Source: an uncultured Pelagibacteraceae bacterium (GTDB taxonomy: Bacteria > Pseudomonadota > Alphaproteobacteria > Pelagibacterales > Pelagibacteraceae). From it: 64,000 bases of DNA. The notes under the pieces are model-generated. The model was given only the letters and a program-made list of their open reading frames with translations, was not told the origin of the DNA and did not search any database. Shown here piece after piece: positions 4,936-17,047 of this stretch. The stretch covers positions 1 through 64,000 of the forward strand of contig CABYQM010000001.1 in the NCBI GenBank assembly GCA_902521075.1. Reading direction: 5' to 3'. A program made the position numbers and the translations under genes. Position 1 is the stretch's first letter, and every line of letters starts with the position of its first letter.

Positions 4936-5763
4936 ATGAGAATAATAAGTTTTACTAATAGTATAAAATATAGATTAATAAGATTAATAGAAGCCCAACC
5001 TTCTTTAAACTTATTGATTTATAATAATATTTCACTTTTCAAAGCCTTTTTACCTCACGAGAAAGATTATTATGGAATTAGACATTTACTGAAGAATAAT
5101 ATTAATGACACTATAATTGATGTTGGGGGAAACCTTGGGATATCTTCAATGGGTTTTAGACAATTAGGATATGATAATAAGATTCTGATATTTGAACCCA
5201 ACACTTATATTTATAACCAATATATAAAAAGAAAGTTAATCAAAAAATACAAAAATATATTAGGATTTAATTTTGCTTTAGGAAGCAGATTAGAGACGAA
5301 AAATTTTTATTATCCATATTATAAAAATAAATGTATTCACTATTTTTGTAGTTTTGATAAGAATTATATTTTAAATAGCATAAAAATCACTTTTAAAAAA
5401 AAAAAGATAAAAATAATAAAAAGACCAATAAAAATAAAAGTTTTTGATAAACTGAAACTTAAACATACTCCTAAATTGATTAAAATTGATGTAGAGGGAC
5501 ACGATTATGAGGTTATACGAGGAATGATAAGTACAATAAAAAAAAATAAACCAGTTATTTTAGTAGAGTTTAATAAAAATAATTTTTTCAAAATTAAAAA
5601 ATTACTTAAAAATTATAACTCCTGGGTATATTTTTTTGAAAAAAATAAATTTAAAAAATTTAGTAAAAAAATGATAGATAAAGAGATTTCCAGATCATCA
5701 AAACTTAATTTGATGTCAGTGAGAAATATTTTTTTTGTACCAAAAAGTCACAAATGGATTTAG
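4936..5763 (+). CDS. FkbM family methyltransferase
   Basis: NDTIIDVGGNLGISSMGFRQLGYDNKILIFEPNTYIYNQ and LIKIDVEGHDYEVIRGM motifs. Confidence 0.85.
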   Translation: MRIISFTNSIKYRLIRLIEAQPSLNLLIYNNISLFKAFLPHEKDYYGIRHLLKNNINDTIIDVGGNLGISSMGFRQLGYDNKILIFEPNTYIYNQYIKRKLIKKYKNILGFNFALGSRLETKNFYYPYYKNKCIHYFCSFDKNYILNSIKITFKKKKIKIIKRPIKIKVFDKLKLKHTPKLIKIDVEGHDYEVIRGMISTIKKNKPVILVEFNKNNFFKIKKLLKNYNSWVYFFEKNKFKKFSKKMIDKEISRSSKLNLMSVRNIFFVPKSHKWI

Positions 5764-6725
5764 ATAATTATAGAGATAAATATAACAAGAGTTTTAATTT
5801 TAATTCAGAATTAAGAAAATGCCTTTGTGGATCTGACAAATATAAGAAACTATTTAGTTATGATAGATACTTGCTAAGAAATAAAATTGTAGTGTGTAAA
5901 AAATGTGGATTAATTTTTGCTAATCCTATATTGAAAAAAGATTATTTGGAGAATTTTTATAAATCAGATTTTTATAGAAAACTTTATAATTTAGAATTAG
6001 ACAATAACAAGAAAGATATTTTTTCAAAAGAAGGTGATAATTCAAACAATTCTTTTAATTTTCTAAAAAAATTTATTAATGAGAGAAGACAAATAAACAT
6101 TCTAGAGGTTGGAAGTGGGCACAATACTAATTTAATTCACTTTAAAAAAATCGGAAATTTATATGCGGTAGATTATAGCAATGAGTCTAAAAAATTGGCA
6201 AAAAAAATGGGTATAACATTTCATCAAGGAGGTGTTGAGGTAATAAAAAAATTCAATCTAAATTTTGACTGTATAATATTAAGCCACGTCATAGAGCATT
6301 TTCATGATTTTAAGAATGATATTAGAGAAATTATAAAATTTTCAAATCAAAATACTTTATTTTATATTGAGGTTCCATCTATGGATTTGAAATATAATCT
6401 AGATCAATTACAAAACGCACATAACTTCTATTTTACAAAAAATACCCTAATATTTCATTTAAATAAATTAGGACTAGACTGTATAGAACATGGAATTGCA
6501 AGCAATATCCATCAATATGGAATTTTTAAAAAAGGATCAACAAAGCAAGATAATTCTCTTTCAAACGAATATAACAAAATAATCAAAATACATAAAAAAT
6601 TTTGTTACGAATTTTATTGGCTATATTTAGTTAATTTTTATTTTAGAAAATTTATTAAATTAATTATTGGAGAGAAACTGACTATATTAATAAAAAAAAT
6701 TCTTAAAAAACAAAGAAATAAATGA
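5754..6725 (+). CDS. class I SAM-dependent methyltransferase with N-terminal Cys motifs
   Basis: CLCGS...CKKCGLIFANP N-terminus; ILEVGSGHNTNLIHFKKIGNLYAVDYS; LSHVIEHFHD. Confidence 0.8.
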   Translation: MDLDNYRDKYNKSFNFNSELRKCLCGSDKYKKLFSYDRYLLRNKIVVCKKCGLIFANPILKKDYLENFYKSDFYRKLYNLELDNNKKDIFSKEGDNSNNSFNFLKKFINERRQINILEVGSGHNTNLIHFKKIGNLYAVDYSNESKKLAKKMGITFHQGGVEVIKKFNLNFDCIILSHVIEHFHDFKNDIREIIKFSNQNTLFYIEVPSMDLKYNLDQLQNAHNFYFTKNTLIFHLNKLGLDCIEHGIASNIHQYGIFKKGSTKQDNSLSNEYNKIIKIHKKFCYEFYWLYLVNFYFRKFIKLIIGEKLTILIKKILKKQRNK

Positions 6726-7423
6726 TCGTATCAATTGTCATCCCAGTATTTAATGAAGCTAATACAATTCAAAAAATTTTAAAAAAAATAAATAAAATTA
6801 CAAAAATTAAAAAAGACATAATAGTTGTTGATGATGGTTCTACTGACGGTACTAAAGATATAATTAAATATAAGTGTAAAAATTTATACAATACTTTTTT
6901 AAGTCTAAATAAAAATAGGGGTAAAGGTTTTGCATGTAGAGCTGGTTTAAAAAAGATTAAAGGGGATATTGTGATTATTCAGGATGCAGACTTAGAATAT
7001 GATCCAAATGATTATGATAAATTAATTAAGCCTATTCTAAAAAATCAGACAAATATTGTTTATGGATCAAGAGTTTTAAAGGGAGGTAAAAGGACTAGAC
7101 CTAAGACTTTTGATGTTCTTATAAGATTGTCTGCTAATCATTTTCTAACTTTTCTTTCTAATATGCTAAACAGACACAGTTTAACCGATGCTCACACTTG
7201 TTACAAAGTATTTAAGAAAAGTGTTTATAAAAAAATTAAATTAGAGGAAGATGGGTTTAATTTTTGTCCGGAGATAACAGCAAAATTTTCGAAGCTTGGA
7301 GAAAAAATTTATGAAGTCCCAATTAATTATTTTGGAAGAACCCATGGTGAAGGAAAAAAAATTTCATTTTTTGATGGTTTCAGAGCAATATATGCAATAA
7401 TTAAATACAATATTTTTAGATAA
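6722..7423 (+). CDS. GT2 family glycosyltransferase (dolichol-phosphate mannosyltransferase-like)
   Basis: VSIVIPVFNEANTIQKIL, IIVVDDGSTDGTKDII, VIIQDADLEYDP, YGSRV. Confidence 0.9.
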   Translation: MIVSIVIPVFNEANTIQKILKKINKITKIKKDIIVVDDGSTDGTKDIIKYKCKNLYNTFLSLNKNRGKGFACRAGLKKIKGDIVIIQDADLEYDPNDYDKLIKPILKNQTNIVYGSRVLKGGKRTRPKTFDVLIRLSANHFLTFLSNMLNRHSLTDAHTCYKVFKKSVYKKIKLEEDGFNFCPEITAKFSKLGEKIYEVPINYFGRTHGEGKKISFFDGFRAIYAIIKYNIFR

Positions 7424-7450
7424 TTTGAGTAAATCAGCTCAAATAATAAC

Positions 7451-7478
7451 TTTACTATATAATTACATATTGTATAAA
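7451..7478 (+). promoter_or_regulatory. putative sigma70-type promoter of 5S rRNA (TTTACT-16 nt-TATAAA)
   Basis: tttact at 7451-7456, 16-nt spacer, tataaa at 7473-7478, about 5 nt before the apparent 5S 5' end. Confidence 0.5.
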
Positions 7479-7482
7479 ACGC

Positions 7483-7600
7483 TGCCTGGTAATTATTGCG
7501 AAAGGGAAATACCCGATCCCATTCCGAACTCGGAAGTCAAGCCTTTCTGCGCCGATGGTACTTTGTCTTAAGACATGGAAGAGTAGGACATTGCCAGGCT
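7483..7600 (+). rRNA. rrf: 5S ribosomal RNA
   Basis: tgcctggta...gggaaatacccgatcccattccgaactcggaagtcaagcc...gccgatggtact...ggaagagtaggacattgccaggct: canonical 5S core; the two ends pair (gcctgg/ccaggc). Confidence 0.95.
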
Positions 7601-7610
7601 AAATGCCCAG

Positions 7611-8495
7611 ATGAAAAAATATATTGTAGTAACTGGTGGTGCTGGGTTTGTTGGATCTAATCTAATTGACTATTTACTAATAAAAACGAAACTTAAAATA
7701 ATTAGTTTAGATAATTATTCAACGGGAACAAAAAAAAATCATATTATATCCAGAAGAGTAAAATATATAAATTCAAACACCATTGAAGTAGAGAAGGTAT
7801 TATCAAAATATAAAAACAAAATAAATTCGATTTTTCATTTTGGCGAATTTTCAAGAATTTATCAAAGTTTTGAAAAATTTAATGAGTGCTACTTTTCAAA
7901 TATTATTGGTTCAAATGAAATATTTAAATTTTGTTTAAAAAATAAAATTAAATTAATTTACTCCGCTACTTCTGCTACACTTGGTAATAATGGAAAAGAT
8001 AAAAATTTATCACCTTATGCTTTTACAAAATCTAAAAATTTAGAATTACTAGAAAATTTAAAAAAATGGTTTAAATTCAAATTTGAAATAATTTATTTCT
8101 ACAATGTGTATGGAAATAGACAGATAGAAAATGGAGATATGGCAACTGTAATAGGAATTTTTCAATCTCAATACAAAAAAAAAGAACCATTAACAGTAGT
8201 CAAGCCGGGCACTCAATCGAGAAGATTTACACATATATCAGATACTGTAAAAGTCTGCTATAAAGCCTGGAAAGATAATAAGTGTAAGCATTATAGTATA
8301 AGTCACAAAAAATCTCATTCAATCCAAAGTGTGGCAAAAATGTTTAATTCAAAAATTAAGTTTTTGCCTCAGAGACCAGGTGAAAGATATGCGTCTGCTT
8401 TAACAAATATGTCTTTTAACAACAAGATAATTAGATATTATGGAAAAATAAATTTGAAAGATTACATAACATCGTTTATTAAATCGAAAAATTAA
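7611..8495 (+). CDS. NAD-dependent epimerase/dehydratase (UDP-glucose 4-epimerase-like)
   Basis: VTGGAGFVGSNLIDYLL Rossmann motif, SPYAFTKSKN (YxxxK), FYNVYGNRQ. Confidence 0.85.
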   Translation: MKKYIVVTGGAGFVGSNLIDYLLIKTKLKIISLDNYSTGTKKNHIISRRVKYINSNTIEVEKVLSKYKNKINSIFHFGEFSRIYQSFEKFNECYFSNIIGSNEIFKFCLKNKIKLIYSATSATLGNNGKDKNLSPYAFTKSKNLELLENLKKWFKFKFEIIYFYNVYGNRQIENGDMATVIGIFQSQYKKKEPLTVVKPGTQSRRFTHISDTVKVCYKAWKDNKCKHYSISHKKSHSIQSVAKMFNSKIKFLPQRPGERYASALTNMSFNNKIIRYYGKINLKDYITSFIKSKN

Positions 8496-8501
8496 ATAAA
8501 T

Positions 8502-8627
8502 ATGAAAATTGCAAGTTCATTAAAATCATTAAAAAAAAGAGACCTTAATTCAAAGTTGGTTAGAAGAAGAGGTAGAGTATATATTATAAATAAAAAAAAT
8601 CCTAAATTTAAAGCTAGGCAGAAATAG
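8502..8627 (+). CDS. rpmJ: 50S ribosomal protein L36 (Cys-free form)
   Basis: Own translation [41 protein letters not shown]; conserved L36 C-terminal motif. Not in ORF track (short). Confidence 0.92.
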
Positions 8628-8629
8628 GC

Positions 8630-8740
8630 ATGAATAACGAGTCTCATAAAAATACTTGGAATAATTTTACAAAGTTTGTTTTGTGGGGTTCTGTAGCTGT
8701 AGTGGTTATTTTAGTTCTTATGGCAATTTTTCTTCTATAG
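8630..8740 (+). CDS. aa3-type cytochrome c oxidase subunit IV-like small membrane protein
   Basis: Own translation MNNESHKNTWNNFTKFVLWGSVAVVVILVLMAIFLL*; resembles the bacterial aa3-type subunit IV family (W..F.KF..W + one TM). Confidence 0.7.
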   Translation: MNNESHKNTWNNFTKFVLWGSVAVVVILVLMAIFLL

Positions 8741-8741
8741 A

Positions 8742-9842
8742 ATGATTATTGGTTCAGTTTCAGAGGATATCAAAGTAGAAAAAAGAGTTGCTCTGACTCC
8801 AGAAATTTTAAAGAAATATAAAACTTTAGGTTTAAAAATTTGTATTAGCAAAGGTTATGCAAGTCATATTGGTTTTAGTGACAGCGAGTATCAGAACGAA
8901 GGAGTAGAAGTACTTAATAACAAAGAAGAAGTAATTTTAAAATCAAATATATTAATTCAGATGGGAATTCCATCTAATGACGATTTAAAATTACTAAAAG
9001 AAAATCAAACTTTAATTGGAGTTTTAAATCCTTACAACAATGAGGAAAAATTAAAGAATTTAATATCAAAAAAAGTCAATTGTTTCTCTTTAGATCTTTT
9101 GCCTAGGATTACAAGGGCCCAGTCGATGGATATTTTATCATCCCAAGCTAACCTTGCTGGATATAAAGCAGTTGTAGATTCATTCTCTATTTTTGAAAAG
9201 GCAATACCAATGATGATGACTGCAGCTGGTACAATTTCGGCGGCAAAAGTACTTGTTGTAGGTGCTGGAGTGGCTGGACTTCAAGCAATTGCAACTGCCA
9301 AAAGAATGGGAGCAATTGTTTATGCTACAGACGTCAGAATGGCTTCAAAAGAACAAGTAGAGAGTTTAGGAGGAAAATTTTTAACTGTTGAAGGTGCTGA
9401 TAATCTAGAGACAGAAGGGGGTTACGCAAAAGAAGCAAGTATAGAGTTTAAAAAAAAACAAGAGGATCTTTTAAAAGAAACTTTAAAAAAAATCGATGTA
9501 ATTATATGTACTGCTTTAATACCTGGAAAAAAAGCACCAGTTATTATAAAAAAAGATATGATCGAGGAGATGCAAAGTGGATCTATAATCTATGATTTAG
9601 CAGCTTCACAAGGTGGTAATGCAGAATTTACAAAACCAAATGAAGTAGTAGATTATAATGGCGTAAAGATAGTAGGTGAAAAAAATATATTAAACAAACT
9701 TCCAGTTTCATCATCAAATTTATATTCTAAGAATGTATTCAATTTTATAAATAATTTATATGATAAAGAAAAAAAACAAATCGATCTAAATTTTGAGGAT
9801 GAAATAATTGATAAAACAAATGTGAGGTTTAATGGAAATTGA
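8742..9842 (+). CDS. pntAA: NAD(P) transhydrogenase subunit alpha part 1
   Basis: KVEKRVALTPEILKKY, AKVLVVGAGVAGLQAIATAKRMGAIVYATDVR; followed by pntAB and pntB. Confidence 0.95.
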   Translation: MIIGSVSEDIKVEKRVALTPEILKKYKTLGLKICISKGYASHIGFSDSEYQNEGVEVLNNKEEVILKSNILIQMGIPSNDDLKLLKENQTLIGVLNPYNNEEKLKNLISKKVNCFSLDLLPRITRAQSMDILSSQANLAGYKAVVDSFSIFEKAIPMMMTAAGTISAAKVLVVGAGVAGLQAIATAKRMGAIVYATDVRMASKEQVESLGGKFLTVEGADNLETEGGYAKEASIEFKKKQEDLLKETLKKIDVIICTALIPGKKAPVIIKKDMIEEMQSGSIIYDLAASQGGNAEFTKPNEVVDYNGVKIVGEKNILNKLPVSSSNLYSKNVFNFINNLYDKEKKQIDLNFEDEIIDKTNVRFNGN

Positions 9843-11532: not shown

Positions 11533-12225
11533 TTGACAAAAATATTTTGTGATATAGCCGACCTAAAATCTATAAGAAAATTTGAAAAAAAAAAGATAGT
11601 AAAAGGATTTACCACAAACCCAAGTCTTATTAGGAATGCAGGTGCAAAAGATTATGCTTCATATTGCAAAAAAATTCTTAAGATAACAAAGAAGCCAGTT
11701 TCGATTGAGGTTTTTGCAGATGATGTTGAAGAAATAATTGATCAAGGTTTCAAAATAAATAATTGGGGGAAAAATGTATTTGTAAAAGTCCCTGTAATTA
11801 ATTCAAAAGGCAAGTTTATGGGAAAAGCAATTAAACATTTCAATGAAAATAATATTAAAATAAATATTACAGCAGTTTATAAAATTGGTCATGTTAAACA
11901 AATATTGAAAAATATAAATAAAAAATCTAGTGTTCTAATATCAATATTTGCTGGCAGAATGGCTGATAGTGGAAAAGACCCATTACCAATTTTTAAAAAA
12001 AGTTTATATTATGCCAAGAACTTCAAAAATGTAAAAATTTTATGGGCAAGCGTAAGAGAGCCATATAACTTTTTGCAATCAAAAAAAATTGGGTGTCACA
12101 TTATTACAGTCCCGCCTAACATTATTGAAAAAATAGAAAGTTTTGGTAAATCATACAAATCCTTGACTCAACAAACTGTAAATAATTTCCTTTTGGATAG
12201 CAAAAAATCAAAATTTAAACTTTAA
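11533..12225 (+). CDS. transaldolase family protein (short, Fsa/TalC-like)
   Basis: VKGFTTNPSLIRNAGAKDY, VSIEVFADD, VFVKVPVIN, KINITAVY, ILWASVREPYNF. TTG start. Confidence 0.85.
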   Translation: MTKIFCDIADLKSIRKFEKKKIVKGFTTNPSLIRNAGAKDYASYCKKILKITKKPVSIEVFADDVEEIIDQGFKINNWGKNVFVKVPVINSKGKFMGKAIKHFNENNIKINITAVYKIGHVKQILKNINKKSSVLISIFAGRMADSGKDPLPIFKKSLYYAKNFKNVKILWASVREPYNFLQSKKIGCHIITVPPNIIEKIESFGKSYKSLTQQTVNNFLLDSKKSKFKL

Positions 12226-12925
12226 TCTTATTAAAATATCTAAACCTAAAATCTAGTCCTTCCATAATATAAGATATTATTGAACGTATATTAACTTTAG
12301 AATTTAGATTGTCATTTCTTACATTTACAGATACACTTGTAATATTATTTTTAAAAATCTTTGACATTATATAAAACTCAGTTTCAGCAAAATAATTATA
12401 ATTATTAAGTTTTGACAAAAATTTTACATCAGATTTAAATATTTTTATGCATTGTGTATCTTGCTCAATTAGATTCCCAAAAAGTAATTTGATATATACT
12501 TTTGAAAAATTTGAAATTACCTTTCTGACAAAATTTGTATTGACTTTCGACTTAGGATGACTTTTTGGTCCATAAATTATTTCGTAATTTTTTTCTTTCA
12601 ATAAGCTATATCCTTTTTTATAAAAATTAAACGACCAAGCATTATCTACTGAACATACAGCAAAATATCCCTTTTTCTTTTGTTTAAAAAACTTATTTAA
12701 TCCATAACCTCTATTTTTTTTATTCGATTTTATTATTTTAATTGGATAAATTTCTAATCTTTTTTTTATTAATAATTCGGTATTGTCTGAGCAGTTGTTT
12801 AATAGAAAAACAAAGACATTTTTATTATTTTTAAAATTTTTTAATACCCACAGTATAAATAATTTAACATTTAAAATTCTTTTTTCTTCGTTGTGAACAG
12901 GGAATAAAAAATAAATTTTATTCAT
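12215..12925 (-). CDS. GT2-like glycosyltransferase
   Basis: IYFLFPVHNEEKRILNV, FLLNNCSDNTELLIKK, AVCSVDNAW. Confidence 0.75.
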   Translation of the reverse strand: MNKIYFLFPVHNEEKRILNVKLFILWVLKNFKNNKNVFVFLLNNCSDNTELLIKKRLEIYPIKIIKSNKKNRGYGLNKFFKQKKKGYFAVCSVDNAWSFNFYKKGYSLLKEKNYEIIYGPKSHPKSKVNTNFVRKVISNFSKVYIKLLFGNLIEQDTQCIKIFKSDVKFLSKLNNYNYFAETEFYIMSKIFKNNITSVSVNVRNDNLNSKVNIRSIISYIMEGLDFRFRYFNKIKV

Positions 12926-12929
12926 TTTT

Positions 12930-13820
12930 TTAAGAAACTAAGCTTCTGATCTTATAGACTACATCTCTAACAAATCTTATGTTCATCAGATTTGACAAAA
13001 AGCTTAAATTTTTTAAATATATTTTAGAATAAATTTTTGCTTGTCTCGTAATTAGTTTCTCGTGCAACTTTTTTGAGTTTAATTCACCTACATCTAGTAA
13101 ATTTCCCTCCTTTTTAAAAAAGTTGTACCTATCGTTACCACTAACCAAAGTAGCATAATTATAATAAAGATTTTCATTGATTTTATTATCTGGAGTTAGG
13201 TATCTTATTGAGAACAAAAAACGGTGACTATCTGAGTTATTTATCTCAGAACCATGCACAATGTTTCCATGAAAAATACAAAATTCACCAGGTTTTAAAA
13301 TAATATTTTCCAGTTTTTTATGTTCTAAATTATCCAATTTTACTTCCTGTCCTCTTGCTAACAGATTGTTAGTATCTTTCTTATCATGATGTAAATAATT
13401 ATTTTTATGAGATTCTGGTAATATTTGAAGACATCCATTTTCTAATGTTGACTCGCTTAATGCGACTTGAACAGTTAAACCCTTATCCATCTTGATTTTC
13501 CAATAATTTTGATCTTGATGGTAAGAAACAAATTTTTTTGAATTTGGCGGTTTTAAAAAAATAAGAGAATTCCAAGCAACTATATCGTTTCCTAAAATTT
13601 CTTTTACAACTTTTAATATATTTTCATTATACACAATCATATTTGCCCACTTGAATAATAAATGAGATTTTGTTTTATGTTCAATGCGGAAACTCTCAGA
13701 TTTTATATTTTTATAAAATTTTAAGTATTCATCATTAATATTTTTGGCTACACCAGGTTCCATCGCTTTAAAAGGATACAAAAATCCTTTTTCAAAAAAT
13801 TTATTTTTAATTTCACTCAT
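12930..13820 (-). CDS. phytanoyl-CoA dioxygenase (PhyH) family protein
   Basis: SYHQDQNYWKI (HxD), GCLQILPESHKNN, FHGNIVHGSEINNSDSHRFLFSIRYL (distal His and Arg). Confidence 0.85.
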   Translation of the reverse strand: MSEIKNKFFEKGFLYPFKAMEPGVAKNINDEYLKFYKNIKSESFRIEHKTKSHLLFKWANMIVYNENILKVVKEILGNDIVAWNSLIFLKPPNSKKFVSYHQDQNYWKIKMDKGLTVQVALSESTLENGCLQILPESHKNNYLHHDKKDTNNLLARGQEVKLDNLEHKKLENIILKPGEFCIFHGNIVHGSEINNSDSHRFLFSIRYLTPDNKINENLYYNYATLVSGNDRYNFFKKEGNLLDVGELNSKKLHEKLITRQAKIYSKIYLKNLSFLSNLMNIRFVRDVVYKIRSLVS

Positions 13821-14733
13821 GTCTTTTAAAAAAATTCAAAGTATCATATATCGTTTTATCCACAACATATTTATTTTTATATCCATTGTCTGTAACGGAT
13901 TCACTTTTTGGATTTAATTTTAAATATTTGTATGTTGAGATAGGAAAGTAATTTTTTTTAATAAATTTAATTTTTTTGAAAAATAAATTTACTAAATTAA
14001 ATATTGCATAAATCCAATTATAAATTTTTATTAGTATAAATTTTTTATTGAATGATGACATTTTAACATATTTTCTCATGTGAATATCACCGTTGATTAT
14101 TAATTTTTTATGCATTCCAAGATTTTTTTTTATTATAAAATCGATATATAATGAAATTTCTCTTACATCAGTTATTGGATAATTAATATCAAAGAAAAAC
14201 TTAACCTTTTTTTTGGACATATTTAATAAAAATTCCCCATTAGGTGATACTCTGTTATCGTTCGGACCAATTACATGACATGGATAAATTATTATTAATT
14301 CTTTTTTATACTTTGAAACAAGTTTTTTAAAAAACCTTTCTGTTATATATTTTGATTTTTTATAAAAATTATCTTGTTTATAAATTTTTAGATAATTTTG
14401 TTCTGATATTTTATTTTTTTTATAATTAATAAGATTAATAAAAGATGAAATTAAAATAATTTTTTTACTTTTTTGAAATAACTTACTTAATTTTGCTAAT
14501 AATTTTATATTTTCATGAAAAATATTAATGTTATCTAAATCTTGTCTTGTTGGATGAATTCCAGCAGCATGTATAAAGTAATCAAAGGTAGTATCATCAA
14601 TTTTATTGTTTATATCAATTTTACTTTTCCTTAAATCAATTGTTGTTAAACTTATTCCATTATTTTTAATTAATAAATTTTTAATTTCTGATCCAATAAA
14701 ACCAGTGCTTCCAGATAGTATTATTTTCTTCAT
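13813..14733 (-). CDS. NAD-dependent epimerase/dehydratase
   Basis: MKKIILSGSTGFIGSEIKNLLI, FDYFIHAAGIHP, IILISSFINLINY, VIGPND. Confidence 0.8.
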   Translation of the reverse strand: MKKIILSGSTGFIGSEIKNLLIKNNGISLTTIDLRKSKIDINNKIDDTTFDYFIHAAGIHPTRQDLDNINIFHENIKLLAKLSKLFQKSKKIILISSFINLINYKKNKISEQNYLKIYKQDNFYKKSKYITERFFKKLVSKYKKELIIIYPCHVIGPNDNRVSPNGEFLLNMSKKKVKFFFDINYPITDVREISLYIDFIIKKNLGMHKKLIINGDIHMRKYVKMSSFNKKFILIKIYNWIYAIFNLVNLFFKKIKFIKKNYFPISTYKYLKLNPKSESVTDNGYKNKYVVDKTIYDTLNFFKRHE

Positions 14734-14850
14734 TTAATTAATATATTTTATTTTGATTCAAAAAAAATTAAATTTATCTAATTAGTATCACATTAATTCT
14801 GACTAAAATTAAAATAGTTTTTGATTTATTTTAGTGTAAAAATTTATCTC

Positions 14851-16353
14851 ATGGTAAATAAAAATTTTGGAGTTCAAATAAAAATTTTAAGTCTTCTATT
14901 ATTGAGTTTTCTGTGGAGTTCATTAATTTTTTTTTATTGGAGTTATGATTATGGGCTTTATTATAATCAAGCCGTAAATTTATCTAATGATTACAAAATA
15001 TACTCAAACTTTTTTGATACTAAAGGGCCATTATATTACTTATTTATAAAAATAATTAGTCAATTTATTGGAATCGGTAAAATACAAAGTTATATAACTT
15101 TGGGTCTAACAACATTTTTATTTTTCTTATCTATTTTTTTAATAATAAACCAAAGAACAAAAAAAAATTTTTTATTACTATTTTTTTTCTTGATATCAAT
15201 TCTTCATCAACAAAATATCAATATAAGTTTAGTTTTATTTCAATTTTCATTACAGATTACAAGTTTTTTTTTTCTTTTACAATTTCTTGAAAAAGAAAAT
15301 AAAAAGTATTTTTTAATTTCAACTCTATTTTATGCATTAAGTCTATTTTCCAAGATTGATGTCATCATTTATTTACCTATTTATTTATTAATAATTTTTT
15401 TTATAAATAAAAACAAAAAATATATAATTAGTTTTATTCTATTTTCGTTAATTATGGTTTACTTAATATTAAGTTACCTTTTAGATTTTGACTTAAGGGA
15501 TTTCTGGTGGCATAATTATTTATATAATTCTCAATTTTCATCAGGTTTTTGGAATAGAGAACCATTTTTAAAAATATTTAACTCTCCTTATCATATCTAT
15601 TTAATTATGTTTACTGGTGTTGGAGTTTTATTTTTTGAAATTGTTGATAAAATTTTTACTAATGCAAAAGTAGATTATAAAAATTATTTTAATGTTGTAT
15701 TTAGGAATAGAGTTAATTTTTTTCAAATTTTAATTTTATTAGCAGGAATATTTGTCTGGCTATATTCTGGATCTGATAAAAATTATCACGTTTATATGGT
15801 ATTTTTACCTTTAATTTTAATTATTTGTTACAATTTTAATTTGTTAGATAAGTTTAATTATCGAATATTCTTTTATTACTTGCTAACTTTTTTCTTTTTT
15901 TTAATTACACTTTACCCTGATACTAAAAACGTAATATCTAATAAGTGTTGGAAAAAAAATATTTACTGTTATCAAATTGATAACTATGGTGAGATAGTAA
16001 ATGAAATTAATAATCTTAAAGACTCACAAGATATTATAATTTTAGGATCTGCTGGTTGGCCATATCTATTATCTGGTGCGAAATTAAAAATATCATTAGC
16101 AAATTACACAATGTATTCAGATATAATGAATGACGGAAAAAGGGCTATATTTGATAGACCCAAGGCATTAATAGCAGACCATAATAATTTGATGAAAAGA
16201 GAAACAGATTTCATTTTTTGGGTCGAAAAAAGTTTGATTAACAATTTTGAAAATTCAACAGGCCTTGTGCCCTCCATTTATCTGAGAGAATTATTGGAAA
16301 AGTCAACAAAAATTAAATTACAAGGAAACTTTTATAAATATAAAATAAACTAA
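14851..16353 (+). CDS. polytopic membrane protein, GT39-like glycosyltransferase candidate
   Basis: ~500 aa with many hydrophobic helices; YDYGLYYNQAVNLSNDYKIYSNFFDTKGPLYYLF resembles the GT39 first-loop Asp/KGP region. ORF opens at 14821; Met at 14851 likely. Confidence 0.55.
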   Translation: MVNKNFGVQIKILSLLLLSFLWSSLIFFYWSYDYGLYYNQAVNLSNDYKIYSNFFDTKGPLYYLFIKIISQFIGIGKIQSYITLGLTTFLFFLSIFLIINQRTKKNFLLLFFFLISILHQQNINISLVLFQFSLQITSFFFLLQFLEKENKKYFLISTLFYALSLFSKIDVIIYLPIYLLIIFFINKNKKYIISFILFSLIMVYLILSYLLDFDLRDFWWHNYLYNSQFSSGFWNREPFLKIFNSPYHIYLIMFTGVGVLFFEIVDKIFTNAKVDYKNYFNVVFRNRVNFFQILILLAGIFVWLYSGSDKNYHVYMVFLPLILIICYNFNLLDKFNYRIFFYYLLTFFFFLITLYPDTKNVISNKCWKKNIYCYQIDNYGEIVNEINNLKDSQDIIILGSAGWPYLLSGAKLKISLANYTMYSDIMNDGKRAIFDRPKALIADHNNLMKRETDFIFWVEKSLINNFENSTGLVPSIYLRELLEKSTKIKLQGNFYKYKIN

Positions 16354-16360
16354 AATTCAA

Positions 16361-17047
16361 TTATTTTTTATAGTCTGCAATGTAAAAAATATTTATATCG
16401 TGAAATGGTAAAAAAGTTGGAAAATTTATTCTAGAAATTTTTGTCAGTTTATTATTTAATATTGTTTCTAGGTTAAATATTGAATTTACGTGTTCTATAG
16501 CATTTATGTAATCATATTCCTCATTTTTAAGATTATAACTTTTCTTTTGAATAAAATTTTTTGTAATATATCTACATAATCTCCATAAAATACCAGGATC
16601 GGTTGGCAGACTGATACTAAGTATACATTGATCGTTCATTACCCTTATAACTTCATCTAAGTAAATCTCAGGTTTTGAGATGTGTTCTAAACAATGTGAA
16701 ATAATTATCCTATCAAATTTTTTATCATTAAATGGTATTTTAATGCCATCATATTTTGTAAACTCAATATCAAAATTATTTTTTTTATAATATTCTTTAA
16801 GCATATTCCCTTCATCAATGTCTATTATGTCATAGCTTTTAAACTTGTGCTTAATATGATTTATATGAGGATAAGTACCAGCCCCGATTTCTAAAATTTT
16901 AGTGTTCTCATCAAATAGGTTATTATTTTTTTCCATTAAATTGTGATTTATTTTCATTAATTTGCCAATTAAACCACTATAAAGATGGGTGTTGTAATCT
17001 TTATTTAAATATGAATATTTTTTTTTAAACATATCACTAAATTCCAA
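16361..17047 (-). CDS. class I SAM-dependent methyltransferase
   Basis: ILEIGAGTYPHINHI, FDRIIISHCLEHISKPEIYLDEVIRVM. Confidence 0.85.
   Translation of the reverse strand: MEFSDMFKKKYSYLNKDYNTHLYSGLIGKLMKINHNLMEKNNNLFDENTKILEIGAGTYPHINHIKHKFKSYDIIDIDEGNMLKEYYKKNNFDIEFTKYDGIKIPFNDKKFDRIIISHCLEHISKPEIYLDEVIRVMNDQCILSISLPTDPGILWRLCRYITKNFIQKKSYNLKNEEYDYINAIEHVNSIFNLETILNNKLTKISRINFPTFLPFHDINIFYIADYKK

Follow-up and report, generated by a model that had tools for sequence, protein, structure and literature searches.

A predicted promoter of its own for the detached 5S rRNA gene in the split rRNA operon of Pelagibacteraceae

Bacterial rRNA genes are most commonly joined in one operon. In SAR11, published work describes a split operon, in which a surface-glycan island tens of kilobases long (hypervariable region 2, HVR2, with its O-chain biosynthetic cluster) separates 5S from 16S–23S in genomes with a single rRNA set (PMC2217521, PMC4053759, PMC3815206, PMC11898729). 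The locus analysed here is a member of this class, so the location of its 5S gene is not new. The portions of these four papers that were available describe no 5S promoter, lost processing stem or 5S–rpmJ unit, and among open-licence literature we found no paper on a 5S promoter or a 5S–rpmJ unit in SAR11. The ‘pntA element’ of Candidatus Pelagibacter ubique lies in the same gene order, with 5S or rmlB mostly annotated upstream of the rpmJ–pntA interval, but that paper says nothing of a promoter or of 5S and rpmJ forming a unit, and its proposed RNA structure lies over a small protein-coding ORF (PMC2704228). Borrelia, Wolbachia and Buchnera resemble SAR11 in placing parts of the rRNA operon on separate promoters; there, however, 16S is detached and 5S stays with 23S, whereas in SAR11 it is 5S alone that is detached (PMC3037291, PMC7761764).

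The window, by which we mean the whole 64 000-nucleotide stretch analysed, carries a 5S rRNA gene at 7485–7599 on the plus strand (Rfam RF00001, 5S_rRNA, full length, 94.2 bits). The gene called in the first-pass annotation is thus real, and it is the sole 5S of the draft genome (1.09 Mb, 27 contigs, 78.5% complete); complete relatives likewise carry one. Its first 38 bases are common to five named genomes, all uncultured Pelagibacteraceae, which places the host in this family. In a subset of 5S genes from the same genus (L034, L037, L040, L058 and others), the terminal helix is one base shorter and recoded by compensatory change, helix I reading GCCGG...CCGGC rather than GCCTGG...CCAGGC. The glycosyltransferase and methyltransferase neighbours proposed upstream were recovered by Pfam as an FkbM methyltransferase (4936–5763), a methyltransferase (5754–6725) and, as the final island gene 5′ of 5S, a GT2 glycosyltransferase (6722–7423, plus strand; PF00535, E = 4.3e-33). 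Downstream, the start codon of an NAD-dependent nucleotide-sugar epimerase/dehydratase (SDR; 7611–8495, plus strand; PF01370, E = 1.7e-29, with related NCBIfam models scoring below their cut-offs) lies 11 nt past the end of 5S. It is followed on the plus strand by rpmJ, encoding type B ribosomal protein bL36 (8502–8627; PF00444, E = 2e-16; NCBIfam NF002021 above cut-off), and by pntA, the transhydrogenase alpha subunit gene at which the core-genome side begins (8742–9842; PF01262/PF05222), with pntB next to it. Past pntB and transaldolase, at 12215–17047, is another small block, again of glycan-type genes (GT2, PhyH, SDR, a 510-aa protein without a family and a methyltransferase); it ends at a tRNA-Met (17055). 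A search of a phage collection gave no match.

No 23S was found within 1.5 kb 5′ of the window 5S. The 16S–23S genes that the first-pass annotation suggested looking for are on another contig of the same genome, with 16S at C13:22957–24381 (minus strand) and the 23S ends at approximately C13:22527 and 19775, flanking a 2500-base masked run. Downstream of 23S, C13:1–15000 holds sugar-biosynthesis genes and not 5S, and a second complete 16S–23S–5S operon was not found in the 78.5%-complete draft. The proposed separation of 23S from 5S by the SAR11 hypervariable island therefore holds for this genome, although in the draft the contigs (C13 and C1) break inside the island; the whole 23S-to-5S island was seen on a single contig in relatives such as G017, G074 and G003. 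Where both markers lie on one contig and the same strand, they are approximately 21–62 kb apart (G140, 21 kb; G009, 46 kb; G017, 46 kb; G074, 55 kb; G003, 62 kb). Searches with LSU families missed 23S in G000, where the masked run was the cause, and in several complete genomes, so 16S positions were substituted where available. In G051, 5S lies approximately 437 kb from 23S on the opposite strand and retains both promoter and rpmJ; comparable relocations are reported for strain uisw_092 (PMC12421898) and genomospecies Ib.4 (PMC11898729).

On the 3′ side of 23S (loci L173–L192), TGCACTGAAAAAAATTTT is nearly invariant and gives way at once to unrelated island sequence; it pairs with the 5′ flank of 23S as a processing stem (−16.7 kcal/mol in G003), and the island has a sharp left edge at this stem. 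The 5S gene was expected to mark the other edge. It does sit at the edge of the island, but the island has no clean stop there, since a nucleotide-sugar SDR gene often lies between 5S and rpmJ, as in the window.

Immediately upstream of 5S, the −35 element TTTACT (7451–7456; family consensus TTTACA) and the −10 element TATAAA (7473–7478), both on the plus strand and separated by a 16-nt spacer, match the claimed promoter exactly. Such a match means little in itself: across the whole window, TTTACT-16-TATAAA with at most one mismatch occurs three times against 4.4 expected, and a generic sigma-70 scan gives as many sites as in shuffled sequence. As neither search did better than chance, both were left out as promoter evidence. 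What makes the promoter convincing is its conservation. When 115 non-redundant family loci were aligned on the 5S start, information reached 0.5–1.3 bits in the strongest −35 columns and approximately 0.4–0.5 bits in most −10 columns, while the control stretch from −158 to −61 averaged 0.03 bits and nowhere exceeded 0.16. We then scored 67 held-out loci from the window's genus with a two-box −35/−10 model trained on other genera only, using shifted positions as the null. The median score was 11.7, versus −3.0 for the null, and 57 of the 67 loci exceeded the 95th percentile of the null (45 the 99th), with the proviso that the genomes are related and the loci therefore not independent. The promoter block is thus conserved across SAR11 genomes, the comparison called for at first pass; approximately 10 of the 67 same-genus loci fall below the 95th percentile, some with degenerate boxes. 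The window site, with a score of 14.6, ranks second among approximately 640 000 placements on both strands of the 64 kb, and none of 402 null stretches reached it. Five further named genomes all score above 11, four with TTTACA and one with the weaker TTTGCC as −35.

The distance from the promoter to the gene is also conserved. From the end of the −10 element to position 1 of 5S there are 6 or 7 nt in most loci, and position −1 is G in 96 of the 115. This near-fixed spacing, with the G at −1, suggests that transcription starts where mature 5S begins or within 1–2 nt of that point, in keeping with the original proposal; in the window the predicted start is 7484–7485 (plus strand), 6–7 nt past the −10 element. 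The same evidence bears on whether A+T-rich sequence merely mimics a promoter here, as the behaviour of the generic window scans might suggest. The held-out cross-genus test and the fixed spacing to 5S speak against this reading, and unless the alignment anchoring is wrong the held-out test has already refuted it; we give it almost no weight. The 16S promoter (CTTGATTT ... TATAAG) is similar to that of 5S in its −10 element and spacing, but its −35 (CTTGATTT) differs. It was accordingly rejected as a regulatory signature shared with 5S, and co-regulation of 16S and 5S is without sequence support. That the dedicated 5S promoter might keep rRNA stoichiometry, as put forward at first pass, is a conjecture.

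Another family of the same taxonomic order, with 23S linked to 5S, provides a comparison, although it comprises a single clade of 12 loci. Here 23S ends 90–97 nt before 5S in all 12 loci. The flanks of 5S form a long stem (mean −16.2 kcal/mol, versus −6.8 when shuffled), and no locus of the 12 has a promoter above threshold, even though the sequence upstream of 5S is A+T-rich there too, a further point against a compositional artefact. The flank duplex of the split family is no stronger than in shuffles (−3.5 versus −3.9 kcal/mol), and the window locus itself (L001; −2.7 kcal/mol) has neither of the standard-operon traits, a processing stem and a nearby 23S. With a stem and no promoter in the linked family, and a promoter and no stem in the split family, the two are alternatives. 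Which of the two states came first we infer from the commonness of the joined operon among bacteria and from reports of joined operons within SAR11. The latter concern subclades IV/V and HIMB59 (PMC7318151, PMC3815206).

Pairwise homology around 5S (INDEPENDENCE from neighbours) mostly ends between −40 and 0, yet runs for at least 300 nt downstream, and only 115 of 1957 pairs have homology extending more than 200 nt upstream. One might suppose from this that the conserved block is maintained not as a promoter but to anchor recombination when island cassettes are exchanged, as homology between genomes ends about here and Wilhelm 2007 proposed the flanking rRNA genes as sites of homologous recombination (PMC2217521). 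However, only two hexamers are conserved; they sit at sigma-70 spacing, and the spacer separating them varies. Such a pattern is too short and too interrupted for a recombination substrate, and 5S and the downstream genes could serve that purpose without a promoter block. We regard this explanation as very improbable, although the two roles could go together. A more serious alternative is that 5S is supplied mainly by read-through from island genes followed by excision by RNases, with the promoter secondary. In 78 of 109 loci the closest long ORF 5′ of 5S shares its strand, so read-through could contribute to 5S supply, and no intrinsic terminator was found at 6500–9000. Yet in 29 of the 109 this ORF is on the opposite strand, and 27 of those 29 have a promoter above threshold; in addition, the upstream genes vary among genomes and the processing stem is lost. 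We therefore consider read-through unlikely to be the main source, and favour transcription of 5S from its own promoter.

Of 119 family loci, 79 have rpmJ directly after 5S, with a gap of 7–31 nt; another 37 have an SDR gene in between, beginning approximately 6–38 nt after 5S, with rpmJ approximately 0.9–1.05 kb further on. One or other arrangement thus accounts for 116 loci. Because rpmJ follows either directly or past one glycan gene, it is rpmJ, rather than 5S, that forms the constant downstream anchor. Three loci have other genes right after 5S (L047, L132 and L036), a convergent glycosyltransferase in two and a GDP-mannose-dehydratase-like gene in one, and the island can therefore reach beyond 5S. 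The gap from 5S to the next start codon is too short for a terminator. This, together with the order of rpmJ, suggests that 5S leads a 5S–(SDR)–rpmJ unit and is made with its 5′ end already mature. The earlier description of a ‘lone’ 5S is right in that the gene is detached from 23S, but it overlooks rpmJ, which follows with no space for a terminator. A promoter within 5S driving rpmJ was also considered and rejected, as only 6 of 116 loci had one above threshold. All 18 genomes tested gave a match to RNase E/G (the window's own draft as two pieces on different contigs), and retention of this enzyme makes a 3′ cut of 5S possible.

Between rpmJ and pntA, the gap is filled by a 36-aa single-helix ORF (8630–8740, plus strand; COX4_pro_2, PF07835, E = 4.9e-11). 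Homologues are present in 83 of 119 loci. Of the differences among them, 30/13/57% are at codon positions 1/2/3, as is typical of coding sequence. Meyer 2009 proposed the structured ‘pntA element’ RNA for the same interval (PMC2704228); since a conserved small ORF lies there, the RNA motif may instead reflect a gene for a small protein.

We propose the following explanation, to which we assign a probability of about 0.82. In Pelagibacteraceae the O-chain island splits the rRNA operon, and the detached 5S would have a sigma-70-type promoter to itself, TTTACA-16/17-TATAAa, with transcription starting within approximately 1–2 nt of the mature 5′ end. Little or no 5′ processing of 5S would then be required, and with such a start the flanking stem for cutting a 23S–5S precursor has been lost. 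RNA polymerase would continue without an intrinsic terminator into rpmJ, here across the inserted nucleotide-sugar SDR gene, so that 5S and rpmJ would be co-transcribed, and the 3′ end of 5S would probably be generated by cleavage of the RNase E type within the short A/U-rich spacer. A bolder extension, which we put forward tentatively and at somewhat less than even odds, is that SAR11 5S is a primary transcript, whose 5′ end never arises by cleavage of a larger rRNA precursor and which heads a conserved 5S–rpmJ unit. One promoter would then couple the supply of 5S and bL36 and set it apart from the 16S–23S promoter, and 50S assembly might be tunable at a control point of its own.

Separate transcription of 5S is familiar elsewhere. 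Archaeal and eukaryotic 5S genes have their own promoters, and their transcripts begin at the mature 5′ end or close to it, but with a different polymerase and promoter class, and the arrangement is not homologous to that of SAR11. In some mycoplasmas, a lineage unrelated to SAR11, 5S lies away from 16S–23S and so presumably has its own promoter; we know of no island or 5S–rpmJ unit there. For SAR11, among the most abundant bacterial groups, the analysis predicts a bacterial route of 5S maturation that lacks 5′ processing, and a link between 5S and bL36. It would also explain how these organisms tolerate, within their only rRNA operon, a hypervariable island that spans tens of kilobases: with the 5S side an autonomous unit, the content of the island would be free to change.
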